Positions 325-41,226 of a stretch of DNA of 41,542 bases are shown here, one piece after another. This stretch comes from Planctomycetales bacterium. Lineage in GTDB: Bacteria; Planctomycetota; Planctomycetia; Isosphaerales; Isosphaeraceae. Made by a program: the position numbers and the translations under genes. The notes beneath the pieces are model-generated. The model did no database searches. It was not told where the DNA came from and worked only from the letters and a program-made list of their open reading frames with translations. Where the stretch lies: contig DAIDKV010000112.1 of assembly GCA_027449865.1 (NCBI GenBank), forward strand, positions 1-41,542. Direction: 5' to 3'. The stretch's first letter is position 1. Each line of letters begins with the position of its first letter.

Positions 325-1317
325 TCAGCGATCGGCGAAGCCGCGAGGGTGGTCGCGGTGCCATTTCCAGGCAGTCTCGACGATCGGGCCAATCTCCAGG
401 TATTCGGGCTGCCAGCCGAGCTCGGTCCGGGCCTTCGAGGCGTCGGCGTAGAGAGCCGGGGGATCACCCTCGCGACGGGGCCCCTCGACAACCGGGACCG
501 GCCGGCCCGTGGCTCGCTCGACAGCCGCGAGAACCTCACGCACCGAGGTGGGAGTCCCGGTCCCGAGGTTGTAAAAGAGCGAGGCGCCTGGAGTCGCCAA
601 AGCCTCGAAAACGGCAAAGTGGGCGCGGCTCAGGTCGTCGACGTGGACGTAGTCGCGAAGGCAGGTGCCGTCGGGGGTGGGATAGTCGGTCCCAAAAAGG
701 TTCAGCGGCGGACCCTGGCCGACCGCGGCCGCGATCGCCAGGGGAATCAGGTGGGTCTCGGGGTGGTGGTCCTCGCCGATCCCGCCCTCGGGAGAGGCGC
801 CGGCGGCGTTGAAGTAGCGGAAGGCGGCGAAGCTCAGACCGTGGGCCTTCGAAAGAGCCTTCAACGCGTTTTCGACGTCGAGCTTGGTCTGGCCGTAGGG
901 GTTGATCGGCGACTGCGGCATCCCCTCAACGATCGGGAGGCCCTGCGGAACGCCGTAGGTCGCGCACGTCGAGGAGAAGACAAACCGGCGGATGCCACGG
1001 CGGAGCATGGCACGGAGAAGGTGCAGCGTCGCCACGCTGTTGTTGAAGTAGTATTTCAGCGGATCGGTCACCGACTCGCCGACGTAGGCGAAGGCCGCAA
1101 AATGCATCACCACGTCGGGCCGATCGGCATCGAGAACGCGGCCGACGGCCTCCTCGTCGCCGAGGTCAACCTGGTAAAAGGGCACCTCGGGCCCGACGGC
1201 GGCCCGGTGGCCGAAAACCAGATTATCCAGGACAGCGGGGCGATGCCCGGCGAGGATGAGCTGGCGGACGCAATGGCTTCCAATATAGCCAGCGCCGCCC
1301 ACAACCAGGACATTCAC
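325..1317 (-). CDS. galE: UDP-glucose 4-epimerase
   Basis: This is a 330-residue extended SDR epimerase that interconverts UDP-glucose and UDP-galactose in the cytoplasm, supplying galactose units to surface polysaccharide or the Leloir pathway. The N terminus carries the NAD-binding GGAGYIGSH motif (residues 7-15), followed by the SSTCATYG segment (115-122) and the catalytic YGQTK motif with Tyr141 and Lys145. The length fits the family. I chose the GTG at 1317 because the Rossmann strand begins right after it and a GGAGG sits about 8 bases upstream. The frame stays open for 72 more codons upstream, but that extension has no family match and contains a repeat also found upstream of the response regulator near 5.2 kb. 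The next gene upstream on the same strand is 529 bases away, so galE probably has its own promoter. Confidence 0.95.
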   Translation of the reverse strand: MNVLVVGGAGYIGSHCVRQLILAGHRPAVLDNLVFGHRAAVGPEVPFYQVDLGDEEAVGRVLDADRPDVVMHFAAFAYVGESVTDPLKYYFNNSVATLHLLRAMLRRGIRRFVFSSTCATYGVPQGLPIVEGMPQSPINPYGQTKLDVENALKALSKAHGLSFAAFRYFNAAGASPEGGIGEDHHPETHLIPLAIAAAVGQGPPLNLFGTDYPTPDGTCLRDYVHVDDLSRAHFAVFEALATPGASLFYNLGTGTPTSVREVLAAVERATGRPVPVVEGPRREGDPPALYADASKARTELGWQPEYLEIGPIVETAWKWHRDHPRGFADR

Positions 1318-1330
1318 AGGGAATCCTCCA

Positions 1331-1454
1331 ACACTCTCGATCGCGGCCGGATGACCAGCCCCGACGATATCCGGAGGACGCCCGATCCCGCCAGACCTAC
1401 CTCGCCCGCCGACGCGACCCAGGGCCGCGAATCGATCGGGTGGAGCGGAGACCA
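1331..1454. repeat. Dispersed intergenic repeat, copy A (upstream of galE)
   Basis: A stretch of about 115-125 bases just upstream of the galE start matches 5169-5291, upstream of the response regulator, at roughly 80% identity by eye and in the same orientation relative to the downstream gene. The best conserved core is GACGATATCCGGAGGACGCC (1361-1380 here). Both copies happen to read as a similar peptide in a minus-strand frame, but neither frame is part of a recognised protein. It could be a shared regulatory leader or a non-autonomous dispersed element. Confidence 0.75.
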
Positions 1455-1571
1455 GGGAAAAACGCGAAGCTAAGGACTCAGTCGCGAGACAACCGGGTAA
1501 ATCCATCGGGCAACACCGCCCTCGGCGATTCATGGGATGGACAACGCCCTCCGAGCGAACCCGATCGAAAA

Positions 1572-1596
1572 CGGGAATTCCCGATGAATCATCGGG
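1572..1596. promoter_or_regulatory. Two overlapping palindromes upstream of galE
   Basis: CGGGAATTCCCG (1572-1583) is a perfect 12-bp palindrome. It overlaps CCCGATGA-A-TCATCGGG (1580-1596), a perfect 17-base palindrome with a one-base centre. They share the CCCG bases, so the two structures are mutually exclusive if formed in RNA, or form a compound operator if bound by protein. No ligand or regulator is identifiable. Confidence 0.5.
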
Positions 1597-1846
1597 TCCC
1601 TCGGTGGGCGCCGCTCATCCAACAAAAAGCTCCGGATGACCGGTGTCCTCGCTGGGGGTCGTCACATCGTCGGCATCAATCGAAAGGGTTTGGAGGCGTC
1701 TCTGGTCGGGGTCTGTTCCGCGGTTCTCGACGTTGGAGCCGACCCTTGACCACTTTCCCAGACACGCAAATCAAACCCGCTGCCCGGCCTCTCTCACACG
1801 GTCAATATTTCCCGGTCGCGGATTCGATCTGAATCCACGCGGGCGA

Positions 1847-2926
1847 TCAGTAGCTGTCCGAGCTGATGACCTCGCCGCCGTTCCGTGTGGAGAGAGCCTG
1901 ATAGACGCCCAGCCTTGTGCCCGGAAGGAGCGTATAGAGGGTCGTCCCGTCGAAGGGATGCATGGTCCCGCCGCCGTCCTTGACGCCGGTCGGGTTACCG
2001 AAGGAATCGACTGGCCAGCTCTGGATCGTCTCCTTGAGGAACCTCACGGAGCCGTCGGCCATCGCAAAGTTGGCCCCGCCCGGGTGGCGGCTCGAGGCCG
2101 AGTTCCAAAGGGCGTTGTCCTCGACGCCCGGCCAGCCGTTGGTGTCGGGTGCGGGGAGCGACCCGATCGCGACGAGTCGCTGCGGGTTCATCGCGGTCAG
2201 GGTGTCGAAGAGCCCGTCGCCAAGCCACCCGCTGAACCACCAGTTGGATTCCGGGCGATAGCGATCGTAGAGCATTCGTTCCCCCAGGAGGATCGTGTTG
2301 CTCATCCCGTCGGTCACGTCGGCAATCCGCGTCCGGCTATTCACGTAGAAGATCCCGTTGTCCTGGGCGACGAGCGCGGCCAGCGGCGGGCGGGATGTGG
2401 GGCTCCAGGTCCAGTGGGACCATGTTCCGGTACAGCCCGCGTAGCTGCCATGAGCCGCGCGGAACCCCGGGAACTCCACCCACATCGTGGGCGCCTCGAC
2501 CTGCCTCGCGGCGGGGTCGCTGGGGCAGAGCAGAGTTTCCACCTGCGCCTGCTGGATCGTCAGGTTCTGCGGCTGGGTGATGTTCACGGAGAAATTCACG
2601 GCGTTGAACAGCGCGGACTGTTCCATCTGGGGCAGCATCGCAACGAAGAGGCTATGCCCAAGATCGTAATCGCCCGCCTGGATCCAGCCCTGGCTGTAGG
2701 TGGCGACCCGGACCGGGGTGCCCATCGGAAAACAGCCGACGGCGGACTCATAGTTGTGGGAAGCCAGGGCGAGTTGCTTGAGGTTGTTCGTGCATCGAGC
2801 GCGTCGGGCCGCCTCGCGGGCGGCCTGGACGGCGGGGAGTAACAGGGCGATGAGCACGGCGATGATCGAGATAACCACCAGAAGCTCAATCAGGGTGAAA
2901 CCACGGGAGTGATCGCGTCGTGTCAT
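1847..2926 (-). CDS. DUF1559 protein with prepilin-type N terminus (pseudopilin-like)
   Basis: This 359-residue protein belongs to the large planctomycete DUF1559 family. Its N terminus has a type IV prepilin methylation motif, GFTLIELLVVISIIAVL (residues 9-25), continuing into a hydrophobic helix, so it is probably cleaved by a prepilin peptidase and inserted in the membrane. The helix is followed by the family's LLPAVQAAREAARRA segment. Near the C terminus is the H-x9-DG motif (HPGGANFAMADGSVRFL). The ATG at 2926 is preceded by AAGGAGA at good spacing. Members occur in many copies per genome and their function is unknown; a role in secretion or surface assembly is inferred from the pilin-like start alone. 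The next gene upstream (the histidine kinase, same strand) ends 80 bases away. Confidence 0.93.
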   Translation of the reverse strand: MTRRDHSRGFTLIELLVVISIIAVLIALLLPAVQAAREAARRARCTNNLKQLALASHNYESAVGCFPMGTPVRVATYSQGWIQAGDYDLGHSLFVAMLPQMEQSALFNAVNFSVNITQPQNLTIQQAQVETLLCPSDPAARQVEAPTMWVEFPGFRAAHGSYAGCTGTWSHWTWSPTSRPPLAALVAQDNGIFYVNSRTRIADVTDGMSNTILLGERMLYDRYRPESNWWFSGWLGDGLFDTLTAMNPQRLVAIGSLPAPDTNGWPGVEDNALWNSASSRHPGGANFAMADGSVRFLKETIQSWPVDSFGNPTGVKDGGGTMHPFDGTTLYTLLPGTRLGVYQALSTRNGGEVISSDSY

Positions 2927-3006: not shown

Positions 3007-4377
3007 TTACGCGGGGATGACGATTTCGTCATGCGCGGGCGAGGGGAAACCCAGGGTGGCCACGCACCCAGCGCCGGGACGGCTGGCGATCGAGGCTCGA
3101 CCGCCGTGCAGCTCGGCGATGGTCCGAACGATCGCCAGACCGAGGCCGACGCCCTGGCCGGAGGGACGGGCCGGATCCGGCCGATAGAACCGGTCGAAGA
3201 GGTGAGGCAGGTGCTCTGGGGCGATCCCGGAGCCGGTATCGGCCACGGAGATTTCCAGGCCGTTGGGTCCGGAGGCGGCGGAAACGGTCACCCGGCCGCC
3301 CGGGGGAGTGTGGGTCAGGGCGTTGGTCAGGAGGTTGCCCAGGGCCCTCTGGAAGAGCGTTCGGTCGAGCCGACAGGCCAGATGGGGAGGGGCGACGACG
3401 ATCAACTCGATCCCTGCCTCGGCCGCGGCCGGTCCGTAGAATTCGCGGACGACCGCAAGCTCGGCCGCCAGATCAAAGGCTTCCAGCTCGAGGACAGTCC
3501 GGGGGTCGGCGGCTCGTGCGAGGAAGAGCAGTCGCTCGATCAGCCGGGTGAGGTGCTCGGCCGAGTCGAGGCAGGCGGCCAGTGCCTCCCGGTCCTCATC
3601 CCGAGTTCGGGAGGTCTCCAGGGCAACCTCGGCGACGTTCCGGATGGCGTGGACGGGCGTCCTGAGCTCGTGGGCGATCTCGGCGGAGAACCGTTCGAGC
3701 CGGCCGAACGACTCCTGAAGCCGGTCGAGCATCACGTTGAAGGTCCGGGCCAGGTCGTCCAGCTCGGCGGGGATCCGGTCGAGAGCGATCCGATCCCCCA
3801 GTCGCTCGGGGCCAATCCGTCGAGCGGTCGCCGCGATCTCGCCCACGGGACGGAGACCGCGGCGGGCGATCACCAGGCCAGCGACGGCCGACGCCGCCAG
3901 TGCCGGAGCCAGTACGAAAGCCATGTAAGACCGGTACCGCCCGAGCAGCTCCAGCTCGTGGGTCCGCTCATAGGAGACCTCGTAGATCCGGCCCCCCGCA
4001 CGCCGCGAGAGGGCACGGAACCATCGTCCCGATGCGGTCCGAAAGTTAAGGCCAGGGGCGCCCGGGACCAGAACCGGCGGAAGCCGATCCTTCGCCGAGG
4101 GCGTCGTGAAGACGATCCGGCCGGTCTCGTCTCGGATGCGAATGTCGTCGGCTGGAGTGTCCTCCGGATCGGGGAGCCGGCCGGTTCGGCGCTCGTAATT
4201 CATCAAGTAGTCAATCGAGTCACCCAGCCATTCGTCGCCGTCGGCGTCGAGGCTGGCCACGATTGTCCCATGCAGGCTCGCCGTTGCGACCACCAGGAGA
4301 ACGGCTGCCGATCCGGCGTACCAGGCGGCCATCCGCCCGCCCATCGACCAGGCCCTAACCCCGGGCTTCGAGGACAT
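3007..4377 (-). CDS. Sensor histidine kinase (heavy-metal-sensor/CusS-like architecture)
   Basis: This 456-residue membrane kinase partners the response regulator just upstream. A first membrane helix lies at about residues 18-36, a periplasmic sensor domain of about 110 residues follows, and a second helix covers roughly 151-172. Next come a HAMP linker, a HisKA domain with the phospho-acceptor His236 in [11 protein letters not shown], an N-box around Asn352 ([14 protein letters not shown]), and G-boxes ([17 protein letters not shown] near 407-417). All catalytic elements are present. The start codon lies inside the end of the regulator gene (23-base overlap), which implies translational coupling. 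The architecture resembles CusS/CopS-type sensors, but no metal-binding motif is evident in the periplasmic part, so the signal is unknown. Confidence 0.92.
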
Positions 4378-5029
4378 ATCCCACCCCGCGAACCGTGTAG
4401 ATCAGCCTCGACGGGAACGGGTCATCCACCTTCGCCCGGAGGCGCCGGATGTGGACGTCGACCACGTTGGAATCACTGTCGAAATTCATGTCCCAGACCT
4501 GCTCGGCGATCCGCGTACGCGAGAGCACCTCGCCTGCTCGCCGGGCGAGCAGCGCGAGCAGGCCAAATTCCTTGGGCGTCAGGTCAAGCTTCCGGCCAGA
4601 CCGGCTCGCGGCGAACCGGATCGTGTCGACCTCGAGGTCGGCGATCCGGAGGACTTCCGTCGGACGCGGGGCGCCCCGTCGGAGAACCGTCCGAACCCGG
4701 GCGAGGAACTCGGAGAAGGCGAACGGCTTGACAAGATAATCGTCGGCCCCCAGTTCCAGGCCGCGCACGCGATCCGGGACCGCGTCCATCGCCGTGAGGA
4801 ACAGGACCGGCGTCTGCCGCCCTGATTTCCTCAGCTCGTCGAGGATGGACCAGCCGTCGCGGCCGGGAAGCATCACGTCGAGCACGATCAAGTCATACTC
4901 GCCGGTCAAGGCCATGTGCAGCCCATCATCGCCGCGGGAGGTGACATCGACGGCGAAGCTCGCCTCGACCAGCCCCTTGCAGAGGTAGGCGGCGGTCTTC
5001 CGGTCGTCCTCCACGAGTAGCAGTTTCAT
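4355..5029 (-). CDS. OmpR/PhoB-family response regulator
   Basis: This 224-residue protein has a receiver domain (residues 1-115) and a C-terminal winged helix that binds DNA. The receiver keeps the acidic pocket (EDD, residues 7-9), phospho-acceptor Asp51 in [14 protein letters not shown], and Lys101 in the VKPF motif. The effector part carries the family signature [14 protein letters not shown] and ends in a wing with [12 protein letters not shown] chose the ATG at 5029 because the receiver begins exactly there (MKLLLVEDD); the open frame upstream only covers intergenic repeat B. It overlaps the kinase gene by 23 bases, so the two form one two-component operon. Its targets cannot be read from the sequence. 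Confidence 0.94.
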
Positions 5030-5448
5030 GCTGGCTTCTTGACGAAGGGTCGCGGAATCAATGCACCCGGATGGCCCCTCTACGAGGCCTGTCGCCCTGT
5101 TCGATAACGAGAGCCTTCCGTTCCCGGAGCGGTCCCACATCGCCCCGGCGCTGATCGGGATCGTTTCCACACTCTCGATCGGGGACGGATAACTCGCTCT
5201 GACGATATCCGGAGGACGCCCAATCCCGCCAGATCCAACTCGCCCACCGACGCAACCCAGGACCACGAATCGGGCGAGTGAAGCGGATGGGAGACGAATG
5301 AATCCACGAGAATCATGAAGGACGCGGAGGATTTCCCCGGCGCGTTTCGACGGCAGGAGCGACCAGGATCGATGCGCGTGCGGGAATCCAGGCTCTCCTT
5401 TTCGTGGGAAGGCGTGTTTTCGTAGTTGCGTTTTCTCGCTGGCCCATC
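5030..5448. other. Intergenic region with repeat B, upstream of the two-component operon
   Basis: These 419 bases separate the regulator start from the xylanase stop on the same strand. They contain the second copy of the dispersed repeat. At 5398-5440 is a run of T-rich motifs (TTTTCGTG, GTTTTCGTAG, GCGTTTTCTCG) just past the xylanase stop. It loosely resembles one arm of the A/T-rich fold-back at 38.56 kb, but has no second arm. No gene is recognised here. Confidence 0.45.
5169..5291. repeat. Dispersed intergenic repeat, copy B (upstream of response regulator)
   Basis: This is the partner of the repeat at 1331-1454. It begins ACACTCTCGATCG and contains the same core, GACGATATCCGGAGGACGCC (5201-5220). 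Similarity fades after the AGCGGA near 5286. It sits about 140 bases upstream of the regulator start, compared with about 15 bases for copy A and galE, so the distance to the gene is not conserved. That argues against a simple operator. Confidence 0.75.
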
Positions 5449-6561
5449 TCAGGGCTTCGACAGAACCTCCAGCACGGCGCCAAGGGCCGGCTTGGGCTTC
5501 AATTCTCGGTCGAAAAGCAGCGGATGATTGGTCCGCCGCGGAACCGGCCAGTTGTTCAGCCAGGTCGCCCCGTCATGCGTTCCCCAGAACGTCACGCGGG
5601 TAACCGTGCCGGGGTGCTTCTGGACGGCCCGGAAGATCCGGGCGTAATAGCGGGCCTGCGCCTCGGCAATCTCGGCGGGAAACCGATCCTGGTAAGGATT
5701 GGCGCCGGTTTGCTCCCGGGCGCCCACGTCGGCGCCCCGGCCCCGTCTCGGCAGGACATCCACATCCAGCTCGGTGATCATCACCTTGACGCCCTCGGCC
5801 GCGTAGGCGGCGATCGCCCGGTCAAGGCGATCGGGCGCCCCGGCGTCATCGAGCCGGTAATGGCCCTGGATACCGACCGCGTCGATCCGGGCGCCTCCGG
5901 CCTTCAGCTCGCGGACCAGCCGGATCGTTTTGGTAAGCTTCTCGGCGGTCTCGTCGTTGTAGTCGTTGTAATACAGTTCAGCACCCGGGTCGGCGGCGTG
6001 AGCCATCTCGAACGCCTTCAGGATGAAGTCGTCTCCGATCGCCCGACGCGCCGGACTCTCGCGCAGGTAAGAATTCTTCGCGTCGGAGATGGCCTCGTTG
6101 ACCACGTCCCAGCCGATGACCTTCCCCTTAAAATGACCGACGACCGTGTCGATGTGCTCCTTGAGGTTACGGATCGCCTCCTCGCGCGGGAGGGGCTTCC
6201 GGTCAGGTCCCTGGAAGAGCCAGGCGGGCGACTGGCTGTGCCAGCAGAGCGTGTGACCCACCACCTTCATCTGATGGGCCTGGGCAAACGCGACGATCCG
6301 GTCAGCCGCCTCGAACCGGAAGACACCCGGCCGCGGATGCACCGAGATCGGCTTGAACTCGTTCTCGCCCGTCAGGCAGTCAAACTGGCTGGCGACCAGC
6401 ACCGAGAATTTCGGGTCGTCGAGCTGCCGAGACATGACCGCCGTCCCGATCAGAAAACGATCGCCGGCGGCACCTCGGAGGGTCGTGGTCGGGGCGCCCG
6501 ACCCGGCGAACGCGGGCCCGGCGAGAAAGAGCATCAGAAGAATCGTTTTTGGGTGTCTCAT
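5449..6561 (-). CDS. Exported endo-1,4-beta-xylanase, glycoside hydrolase family 10
   Basis: This 370-residue enzyme should cleave the beta-1,4-xylan backbone with retention of configuration, outside the cytoplasm. An N-terminal signal peptide covers about residues 1-19 ([19 protein letters not shown]). The TIM-barrel landmarks of GH10 are present in order: [10 protein letters not shown] (103-112), [10 protein letters not shown] with acid/base Glu156, and ITELDVDVL with nucleophile Glu264. There is no carbohydrate-binding module, and the length is that of a single catalytic domain. I chose the ATG at 6561 because the signal peptide starts there and GGAG lies just upstream; a GTG or ATG further upstream would disrupt the signal peptide. 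It is divergent from the methyltransferase fusion and points to plant-polymer degradation. Confidence 0.94.
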
Positions 6562-23548: not shown

Positions 23549-23893
23549 CTACAGGACGCTCCCTGATATCGACATACAGGTGCCGATCCAGATGGAGAAC
23601 GAGAGCGGCAGGAGTGCCGCCGTCAGAGACCAGGCCAGCCATCGCGACCGCCTTTCCGAGAAGACCCAGGCCACCGCCACGCAGGCGATGATCGAGAAGA
23701 TGAGATGCGCCACGAAGAGCCCGTTGACCACCGACGGCACCCATCCTGGCGTTTCGATCGACCGATCGGATAGGCGATTGTAGCGGGCCCCGATCACCAT
23801 CAGGGTGGTCGGGCATGCCGAAACCAGCGTCGCCCAGAGGATGAGGGGAAGTCGACCCTTCACGGACGCGGGCCTCCTGTCGATCATCGCCAC
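23549..23893 (-). CDS. Small membrane protein
   Basis: This 114-residue protein has three predicted membrane helices (about residues 16-37, 56-76 and 84-109). The loop between helices 1 and 2 contains DRSIETPGWVPSVVNG, encoded by DNA that recurs in damaged form at 24577-24643. No family is recognised. Start choice is between GTG at 23893 and ATG at 23887, and neither has a strong ribosome site. Confidence 0.6.
   Translation of the reverse strand: MAMIDRRPASVKGRLPLILWATLVSACPTTLMVIGARYNRLSDRSIETPGWVPSVVNGLFVAHLIFSIIACVAVAWVFSERRSRWLAWSLTAALLPLSFSIWIGTCMSISGSVL
23711..23776. repeat. 66-bp repeat, copy 1 (inside the small membrane-protein gene)
   Basis: This segment, coding for part of the loop and second helix of the membrane protein, is about 80% identical to 24577-24643 in the same orientation. 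Similarity stops sharply on both sides. The other copy is frameshifted and fused to a truncated HNH gene, so this one is probably the functional form. Confidence 0.65.
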
Positions 23894-24546: not shown

Positions 24547-24744
24547 TCAAAAGCATAGGGACACTTTTTTCCTCTCCGCGAAGAGCTCGTTGACCACCAG
24601 GGGCACCCCGCCCCGGTGTTTCGATTGACCGATCGAATAGGCGGAGGCCGTCTCCTGGCCGGCCTGCGAGAGTCCGCAGTACTCGCATCGATGGCCGGCC
24701 CGCAGCACGACCTGCTCGCGCAAAGGGGCCGGGATGTCGCTCAT
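24547..24744 (-). pseudogene. Truncated HNH endonuclease gene
   Basis: The first 31 codons read MSDIPAPLREQVVLRAGHRC followed by EYCGLSQAGQE, the classic start of a small HNH nuclease, including the first CxxC zinc pair. After position 24652 the sequence no longer matches: the HIDHVxPxxxGG catalytic core is missing, and the DNA becomes a degraded copy of part of the membrane-protein gene at 23.7 kb, running to a stop at 24547. The ATG overlaps the stop of the preceding small gene (ATGA), as in intact pairs. The nuclease is certainly inactive. This looks like a deletion or recombination scar. Confidence 0.8.
24577..24643. repeat. 66-bp repeat, copy 2 (damaged, beside the HNH truncation)
   Basis: This copy begins CGCGAAGAGCTCGTTGACCA and ends ATAGGCG. 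Read on the minus strand, its first half matches the loop of the membrane protein (DRSIETPG) and its second half (VVNELFAE) matches in another frame, so at least one frameshift has occurred. The breakpoint with HNH sequence lies within about 10 bases of its end. Confidence 0.65.
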
Positions 24745-35946: not shown

Positions 35947-36290
35947 CCGGCCCCCCTCGTCCCCTGGCCATCCATTGGGGTGGGCCTCGGCTCCCGTCGG
36001 GAAATCTCGGCGGCAGCCGACGCCCACCCCTCGTCATGAACTGGCCTCGACAGAACCCCAATTTTCTGATACAAACGTTCATACAGGAACCAGCGGGCGG
36101 CGGGTCATTGCAATTTCGGCCGGGATCCTGAACTGGGGCGGGATCGAGGCCGAAAGGAAAGATGGCTCGACCCGAGGCCGGCCGAGGTTGGAGCAAGCGT
36201 ACCACGGCGAGAGGCCCCGCGGACCGAGGGCGATCTCACCCCACGAGTCGAGCTGGCCGACGAGGCGATAGCCACGGAGCTTGACGAGCC
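35947..36290. other. Intergenic region between rplI and dnaB
   Basis: These 344 bases contain no recognised gene. They hold a candidate dnaB promoter at 36047-36075 (separate entry). rpsR, which might have been expected nearby, is not here. Confidence 0.5.
36047..36075 (+). promoter_or_regulatory. Candidate dnaB promoter
   Basis: TCGACA (36047-36052) and TACAAA (36070-36075) are separated by 17 bases. The -35 box matches five of six consensus positions and the -10 four of six. It would give a leader of about 210 bases. Confidence 0.4.
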
Positions 36291-40059: not shown

Positions 40060-40410
40060 GTGGGCAGGAAATTGTACGTCGGGAACCTCGCTTATCAGGT
40101 CAATGACTCGGACCTGGAGCAGTTGTTCTCGGAGTTCGGGACCGTGCAGAGCGCACAGGTCATCCAGGATCGCGACACGGGTCGTAGCAAGGGGTTCGGC
40201 TTCGTGGAGATGGGCAGCGAGGCCGAGGCGCAGGCCGCCATCCAGGGCCTGCACGACCAGGAGCATAACGGCCGTCGCCTGACGGTGAACGAGGCTCGTC
40301 CCCGTGAGCCTCGGAGCGGCGGTGGTGGCGGCGGCGGCTATGGTGGCGGCGGCGGCTATGGCGGCGGCGGTGGCGGCGGCCGCGGTGGTCGAGGCGGCGG
40401 TCGCTATTGA
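40060..40410 (+). CDS. RRM RNA-binding protein with Gly-Tyr-rich tail (first of tandem pair)
   Basis: This is a protein of about 116 residues with one RNA-recognition motif: RNP2 is KLYVGNL (about residues 3-9) and RNP1 is KGFGFVEM (about 43-50), both intact. A low-complexity tail follows from about residue 83, made of Gly runs with Tyr (GGGGYGGGGGYGGG) and ending RGGRGGGRY. This is the plan of cyanobacterial Rbp and plant GRP proteins. The start is uncertain: ATG at 40054 or 40057, or GTG at 40060. Only the GTG puts GGAG at a normal 7 bases. It probably acts in RNA folding or cold adaptation. Confidence 0.9.
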   Translation: MGRKLYVGNLAYQVNDSDLEQLFSEFGTVQSAQVIQDRDTGRSKGFGFVEMGSEAEAQAAIQGLHDQEHNGRRLTVNEARPREPRSGGGGGGGYGGGGGYGGGGGGGRGGRGGGRY

Positions 40411-40765
40411 TCCGCAAGCGACAGAACCCGGCCGAATCATGCCCCCAGGCTCGTTCGGCCTTTCGCCCGGCGAACTCCCTTCGCCGAGGCACCTGAAATC
40501 CTCTTGCCTTGATCCGTCCCCGCCAGAATTCCTGCCGGCCGACCGATCCGAGCATGGCCGCGAGGTGAGGACGTTCCCTCGCGGCACCCCCCCGGGCAGG
40601 GATCGCCCGCCTCGAGCCGAGACCGGGCCAGCCCCGCGGCGAACTCCTCGCGCCCGCCCTTCTCGTCCCATCCGGCCCGACCGCACGGGCCGCTTCCATC
40701 CCGAGTCACCCAGGGACGACCCGCAGGAGGAGCGGCGGGCCCCGAGTTTTCATGGAGCTGCCGCC
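40411..40765. other. Spacer between the two RRM genes
   Basis: This is a 355-base spacer with no recognised gene. It contains a strong stem-loop at 40557-40585. No clear -35/-10 pair was seen, so the second RRM gene may be read through from the first. Confidence 0.4.
40557..40585. other. Perfect stem-loop between the RRM genes
   Basis: GCCGCGAGG (40557-40565) and CCTCGCGGC (40577-40585) form a perfect 9-bp stem with an 11-base loop. No T-run follows on either side, so it is not a standard terminator. It may be an RNA-processing site or a regulatory hairpin in the leader of the second RRM gene. Confidence 0.5.
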
Positions 40766-41140
40766 ATGGCCACGAGGTTGTTCATCGGGAATCTCCCCCG
40801 GGAAGTGAGTGACGCCGAACTCGAAGGCATCTTCACCGAGTTTGGCACCGTCCAGAGTGTCGAGATCATGCGCGATCGCCAGACCGGGCTCGGAAAGGGT
40901 TTCGGCTATGTCGAAATGGCGAGCGACGCCGAAGCCCAGGCCGCCATCAAGGGAATGCAGGACCGTGAGGTCGTCGGCCGGAAGTTGACGGTCGATAACG
41001 CCAAGCCTCGGAAGTATCGCAGCGGCGGCCTTGACGCCGGTTTCGGCGGCGGATATGGCGGCGGCGGCGGATATGGCGGCGGCGGATACGGTGGTGGCGG
41101 TGGCGGCGGATATCGGAGCGGCGGACGCGGTCGCTATTGA
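40766..41140 (+). CDS. RRM RNA-binding protein with Gly-Tyr-rich tail (second of tandem pair)
   Basis: This 124-residue paralogue of the protein encoded just upstream has RNP2 RLFIGNL (residues 4-10) and RNP1 KGFGYVEM (44-51). A Gly-Tyr-rich tail (from about residue 92) contains repeated YGGGGGYGGGGYG-type units and ends SGGRGRY. The ATG at 40766 has GGAG 8 bases upstream. The RRM regions are clearly related but diverged, so the duplication is not recent. The tails keep the same composition but not the same order. Confidence 0.92.
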   Translation: MATRLFIGNLPREVSDAELEGIFTEFGTVQSVEIMRDRQTGLGKGFGYVEMASDAEAQAAIKGMQDREVVGRKLTVDNAKPRKYRSGGLDAGFGGGYGGGGGYGGGGYGGGGGGGYRSGGRGRY

Positions 41141-41226
41141 TTCCGTGTTCTACATCCCCCACCGAACCAAAATGGCGATCCCCCGGCGATCCCGGGGGCG
41201 CCCCATCTCGAAAGGGGTCTCCGCTC

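Follow-up and report, generated by a model that had tools for sequence, protein, structure and literature searches.

The DNA analysed here, a stretch of 41,542 nucleotides from a Planctomycetales bacterium of the Isosphaeraceae (hereafter the window), carries the same intergenic sequence twice within 4 kb, each time upstream of an unrelated gene. What is this repeat, which we call R, and why are there two copies of it? The answer that we favour, with a probability of about 0.75, is that R is the 5′ leader of galE and that its two copies, R1 and R2, are a direct duplication of this leader around a segment of ~3.84 kb that was added in the lineage of the window, with R1 now decaying. The features of the locus are given in Table 1.

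Table 1. Features of the locus in the window, with their coordinates, strands and main attributes.
Feature	Coordinates	Strand	Attributes
galE, UDP-glucose 4-epimerase-like, 330 aa, GTG start	325..1317	-	Pfam Epimerase 1.9e-53; 97-98% orthologs in G002 and G003 directly after leader
Predicted RNA hairpin, R2 and adjoining galE ribosome-binding site	1323..1379	-	anti-SD CCUCC (1377-1373) pairs with SD GGAGG (1329-1325)
R2, galE leader, retained copy of the 119-bp repeat	1331..1449	-	84% to R1; 95% to the single G003 copy; 97-100% in G002
Spacer DUF1559-R2, inside the insert	1450..1846	.	unlike relatives' xylanase-side flank and the R1-response regulator spacer; no terminal inverted repeat
DUF1559/type IV pilin-like protein, inserted block	1847..2926	-	Pfam PF07596 and N_methyl
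Sensor histidine kinase, inserted block	3007..4377	-	Pfam HAMP, HisKA, HATPase_c
OmpR-type response regulator, inserted block	4355..5029	-	Pfam Response_reg, Trans_reg_C
Spacer R1-response regulator, inside the insert	5030..5168	.	unlike galE 5′ end and upstream region of the G005 regulator
R1, second leader copy	5169..5287	-	140 bp upstream of response regulator; adjoins xylanase-side flank
GH10 xylanase, upstream neighbour of the empty site	5452..6561	-	Pfam Glyco_hydro_10; 92-93% orthologs in G002 and G003 directly before leader

Extent and copy number of the repeat

BLASTN within the window aligned R2 with R1 at 100 of 119 positions (84% identity) without a gap, in the same orientation and with an E-value of 1e-30 to 1e-32. 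A 20-base core, GGGCGTCCTCCGGATATCGTC, is unchanged in both copies and occurs exactly twice in the window, where 0.01 occurrences are expected by chance. All genes neighbouring the two copies are on the minus strand. R2 stops 14 bases short of the galE GTG (1317), R1 stops 140 bases short of the response-regulator ATG (5029), and the distance from R1 to R2 is 3838 bp. The earlier note had described two intergenic copies of ~80% identity, alike in their orientation relative to the genes and different in neighbour and distance, and all of this proved real. It had placed them at 1331-1454 and 5169-5291; the starts hold, and the exact ends are 1449 and 5287. A literature search retrieved no description of R.

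Other repeats in the window include a direct pair at 23710-23776 and 24576-24643 (68 bp, 82% identity, 866 bp apart), possibly a duplicated gene fragment, a direct repeat of ~370 bp at 40061-40411 and 40767-41141 (67% identity), possibly paralogous coding sequence, and an imperfect palindrome of 54 bp at 35977-36030 (81%).

The repeat had been taken to be non-coding, and we came to the same view. In the window the galE frame is open through R2, and that of the regulator through most of R1, which is what an N-terminal coding extension of both proteins would require. However, the differences between R1 and R2 are spread over the three codon positions as 8, 6 and 5, with no excess at the third, and in a relative of the same genus (G003) the galE frame is closed by an upstream stop, with no start codon between this stop and the GTG. 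We rejected the coding extension on these grounds and find it hardly credible.

Two copies in 4 kb had also suggested that the genome would hold many, possibly of an undescribed non-autonomous element. This expectation was wrong, because searches of the genome, of the family and of GTDB r220 found no dispersed copies. The genome itself (8.48 Mb in 278 contigs) has only the two, and the remaining hits are chance similarities of 17-32 bases. With up to two mismatches, the core had one extra match in the whole genome (on C161), which resembles a chance match in coding sequence. Among the 45 genomes of the family scan, R was found in only two others, G002 and G003, both of the same genus as the window, with one copy each at the orthologous site between the GH10 xylanase gene and galE. 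Weak matches of 29-77 bp at the level of the family (G005, G040 and G018) were considered as copies of R and rejected, as they resemble chance matches in coding sequence. In 257 Gb of GTDB r220 genome contigs, the exact core was found outside its own genome in the same two sister MAGs and once in Pseudarthrobacter, a single hit being close to the chance expectation for a 20-base query against a dataset of this size; viral contigs did not match it. Hence, the search of this genome and of related Isosphaeraceae with the core, which the earlier note had proposed, left two copies here and one in each of two relatives. Mapping their ends and neighbours, also proposed there, confirmed that the neighbours differ within the window (galE and the response regulator), while the copies of the relatives are always at the xylanase-galE site.

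The position of two copies, each upstream of an unrelated gene, is what a non-autonomous mobile element or a dispersed intergenic repeat would produce. Yet dispersed repeats and MITE-like elements are expected at multiple non-orthologous sites and with terminal inverted repeats. Here, 8.48 Mb hold no third copy, the single copies of the relatives are orthologous, the weak matches across the family look like coding sequence or chance, and the edges of the insert show neither terminal inverted repeats nor significant inverted similarity. We regard a mobile or dispersed origin of R as very improbable.

The empty site and the probably inserted block

In G003 (locus L017), the xylanase gene, a single R and galE are directly consecutive. 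On its left, this R has a flank that aligns with the one to the left of R1; on its right, it leads into galE in the manner of R2. The gene order of G002 is the same, with R interrupted near its middle by a contig break.

The contig of G002 that carries galE (C304; L018 1-131, the other part being the end of L019) starts with 131 bp of unrelated sequence before R. These match no Pfam family and are absent elsewhere in the five genomes of the genus. They may reflect a separate insertion into this leader or, alternatively, an artefact of the assembly; the k141 in the title suggests contig ends of the size of a k-mer.

The genes between R1 and R2 have a patchy distribution. We compared them with four other members of the genus (G001-G004), one of which is 99% complete. 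The DUF1559 protein has no match at E<=1e-100 in these four, and has orthologs of 80% identity in G005 and G038. The response regulator has nothing at E<=1e-60 in G001-G003 and, within the genus, just a 53% homologue in G004; its identity is 84% in G005 and 79% in G055 and G038. In G005, which belongs to another genus of the same family, the regulator, the kinase and the DUF1559 gene are collinear at 77% nucleotide identity (proteins at 84%, 73% and 80%, respectively), with the kinase adjoining the regulator. Regulator and kinase are also paired in G038 and in G055 (another family). The cluster of G005, the best relative of this one, has no R on either side.

We interpret R1 and R2 as the galE leader, directly duplicated on either side of an insertion, because the relatives hold xylanase gene, R and galE side by side and the block is absent from the other four genomes of the genus and clustered in another genus. 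We infer that the event was a gain. Acquisition of the patchy three-gene cluster into the xylanase-galE interval is the simplest reading. On this view, R serves as the galE leader throughout a small clade of Isosphaeraceae-like planctomycetes. The lineage of the window would have gained, between the xylanase gene and galE, a segment made of a 139-bp spacer, the response regulator, the histidine kinase, the DUF1559 gene, a spacer of ~400 bp and one copy of R, so that the leader now stands as a direct repeat on either side of the insert. The inner copy, R2, would keep serving galE. The outer copy, R1, would have been severed from the ribosome-binding site and start of galE; its fold would not have been kept, and it would be decaying.

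The reverse history deserves serious attention, even if we consider it unlikely: the block and both copies of R would be ancestral, and the lineage of G002 and G003 would have lost the block by recombination between the direct repeats, with one hybrid R left. Direct repeats of 119 bp are natural substrates for deletions, and the R1-type left flank and R2-type body in G003 would be expected after a crossover close to the left edge. Nor is the divergence between R1 and R2 clearly younger than the split of the species. Their Jukes-Cantor (JC) distance is 0.18, compared with 0.22-0.30 at the third positions of galE over the two branches that separate the window from its relatives. The two values are of similar magnitude, the latter being taken as neutral divergence since the split, and the duplication could therefore have about the age of the split. 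However, two more members of the genus, G001 and G004, lack the block too, its occurrence elsewhere is patchy, and a deletion still requires a prior event that made the duplication. Gain of the block is thus the reading that we retain below.

A conserved leader and its probably decaying twin

The two copies differ by 19 substitutions and no indel, and 12 of the 19 are C>T or G>A when read from R2 to R1. At the differing positions, G003 and G002 almost invariably carry the base of R2. A relative-rate comparison assigns ~15 changes to R1 and no more than one to R2 (p ~5e-4). The G+C content is 0.706 in R2 and 0.622 in R1, the latter being close to that of neighbouring intergenic DNA. From these substitutions, R1 appears to be a decaying remnant. 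Alternatively, R1 may stem from a diverged donor and not have decayed in place, which would also account for the slower change of R2.

The leader next to galE is strongly conserved. The 75 bp before the start codon have one difference to each relative (G002 and G003), whereas galE itself differs from theirs at 19-25% of its third codon positions (Fisher p 3e-7 and 1.5e-5, window versus each relative). Within galE, conservation is higher over the first 30 codons (3 of 30 third positions changed) than over the remainder, and the initiation region of translation may therefore be under the same constraint.

Folding the RNA, as had been proposed, gave for R2 and the adjoining ribosome-binding site a stable predicted hairpin that hides the Shine-Dalgarno (SD) sequence of galE, and gave none for R1. 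The 73-nt fold around the galE start has -40.2 kcal/mol and a z-score of about -4.2, with boundaries picked after seeing the fold. When the interval is fixed at -61 to +8, the galE leader scores -2.2, and none of 22 long open reading frames of the window goes beyond -1.5, the most extreme value among them; these frames were chosen by length alone, and several are probably not genes. The counterpart of the fold in R1 (-16.6 kcal/mol, z +0.9) is no better than shuffled sequence, and R1 lacks the GGAGG ribosome-binding site. The predicted structure is identical in the R2 of the window, in G003 and in G002. Pairing between the anti-SD and the ribosome-binding site of galE would probably limit the initiation of translation. 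The three sequences are nearly identical, too similar to display covariation; we infer, reasonably in our view, that the hairpin would sequester the site and that it may act in the cell.

The galE leaders of G001, G004 and G009 have no such hairpin. In these three, similarity to R is borderline or absent; for G001 and G004 the p-values are 0.07-0.10 with R2 and 0.01 with R1. Rfam returned no family match, just chance matches to miRNAs far below the gathering score, none of them in R1 or R2.

The galE leaders of G001, G004 and G009 (L073, L074 and L072, respectively) have in common a motif, GCGTTTTTCTGCGCGA..GCGATCTGG, ~90 bp before the start. It spans two genera and may be a promoter element.

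Is R then a leader shared by two genes, as the earlier note had also suggested? A leader is what R2 is, conserved and lying directly 5′ of galE. That the leader is shared holds in the literal sense only: for R1, shared regulation is conjectural, because this copy is 140 bases away from the start codon, lacks a ribosome-binding site and the predicted fold, and is apparently decaying. If R1 were a working promoter or leader, the duplication would have put the regulator operon under the control of galE's leader. The common orientation of the copies, their 119 columns without an indel and the unchanged core are in line with this, but nearly all changes fall on R1, mostly as C>T or G>A, and a scan that is weak for planctomycetes found no sigma-70-like promoter. 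We find a functional R1 quite doubtful. A more elaborate version combines both elements: the galE leader would be an undescribed cis-regulatory RNA that gates translation through its unusually stable SD-hiding hairpin, and its duplication would have given the two-component operon a transcriptional start that then evolved away from translational control. We offer this as speculation, and think it improbable.

What looked like a repeat family is better read as the scar of a gene acquisition, with a conserved leader, its decaying twin and an empty site in relatives. The explanation is an ordinary one: a two-component cluster was acquired, and the galE leader flanks it on one side and a decaying duplicate of this leader on the other. 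The strongly conserved leader before galE, with its predicted SD-hiding hairpin, is a small, modest regulatory lead in planctomycetes.

Possible routes to the duplication and known systems

Several routes fit a duplicated leader around new genes: single-crossover integration of a circle carrying a homologue of R, homology at one end combined with an illegitimate junction at the other, fill-in repair of a staggered break, and insertion between two copies of R that a previous tandem duplication had produced. Neither a donor nor a circular intermediate with R beside the block was found, and G005, with the best relative of the cluster, lacks R. Such a donor is expected for single-crossover integration only, and its absence leaves the other routes available. 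No residual 5′ end of galE is present next to R1, and no residual xylanase flank next to R2. Integration that adds genes between direct repeats, be it additive, by single crossover or by homology-facilitated illegitimate recombination, is among the events described in bacteria (PMC3240628, PMC3784515), and accounts of one-sided homology with an illegitimate end include E. coli and naturally competent bacteria (PMC3240628).

In its predicted fold, the galE leader resembles RNA thermometers, translational riboswitches and ribosomal-protein leaders in that its anti-SD pairs with the SD. It differs from these SD-sequestering leaders in matching no Rfam family and in its very stable, G+C-rich stem. 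The insert resembles those of transposons and integrative elements, with their target duplications or att repeats, in that direct repeats stand at both of its edges and one of them restores the leader of the target gene. In contrast with these elements, it has no inverted-repeat ends and no integrase, transposase or other recombinase gene detectable with Pfam. Target-site duplications of ordinary transposons are far shorter than 119 bp. Insertions between long direct repeats offer another comparison. The copies in the window depart from these in differing by 16%. As in such insertions, however, the new genes are found between two copies of a sequence that is single at the empty site (in G003, and in G002 in two contigs), and they are absent from close relatives and present elsewhere.
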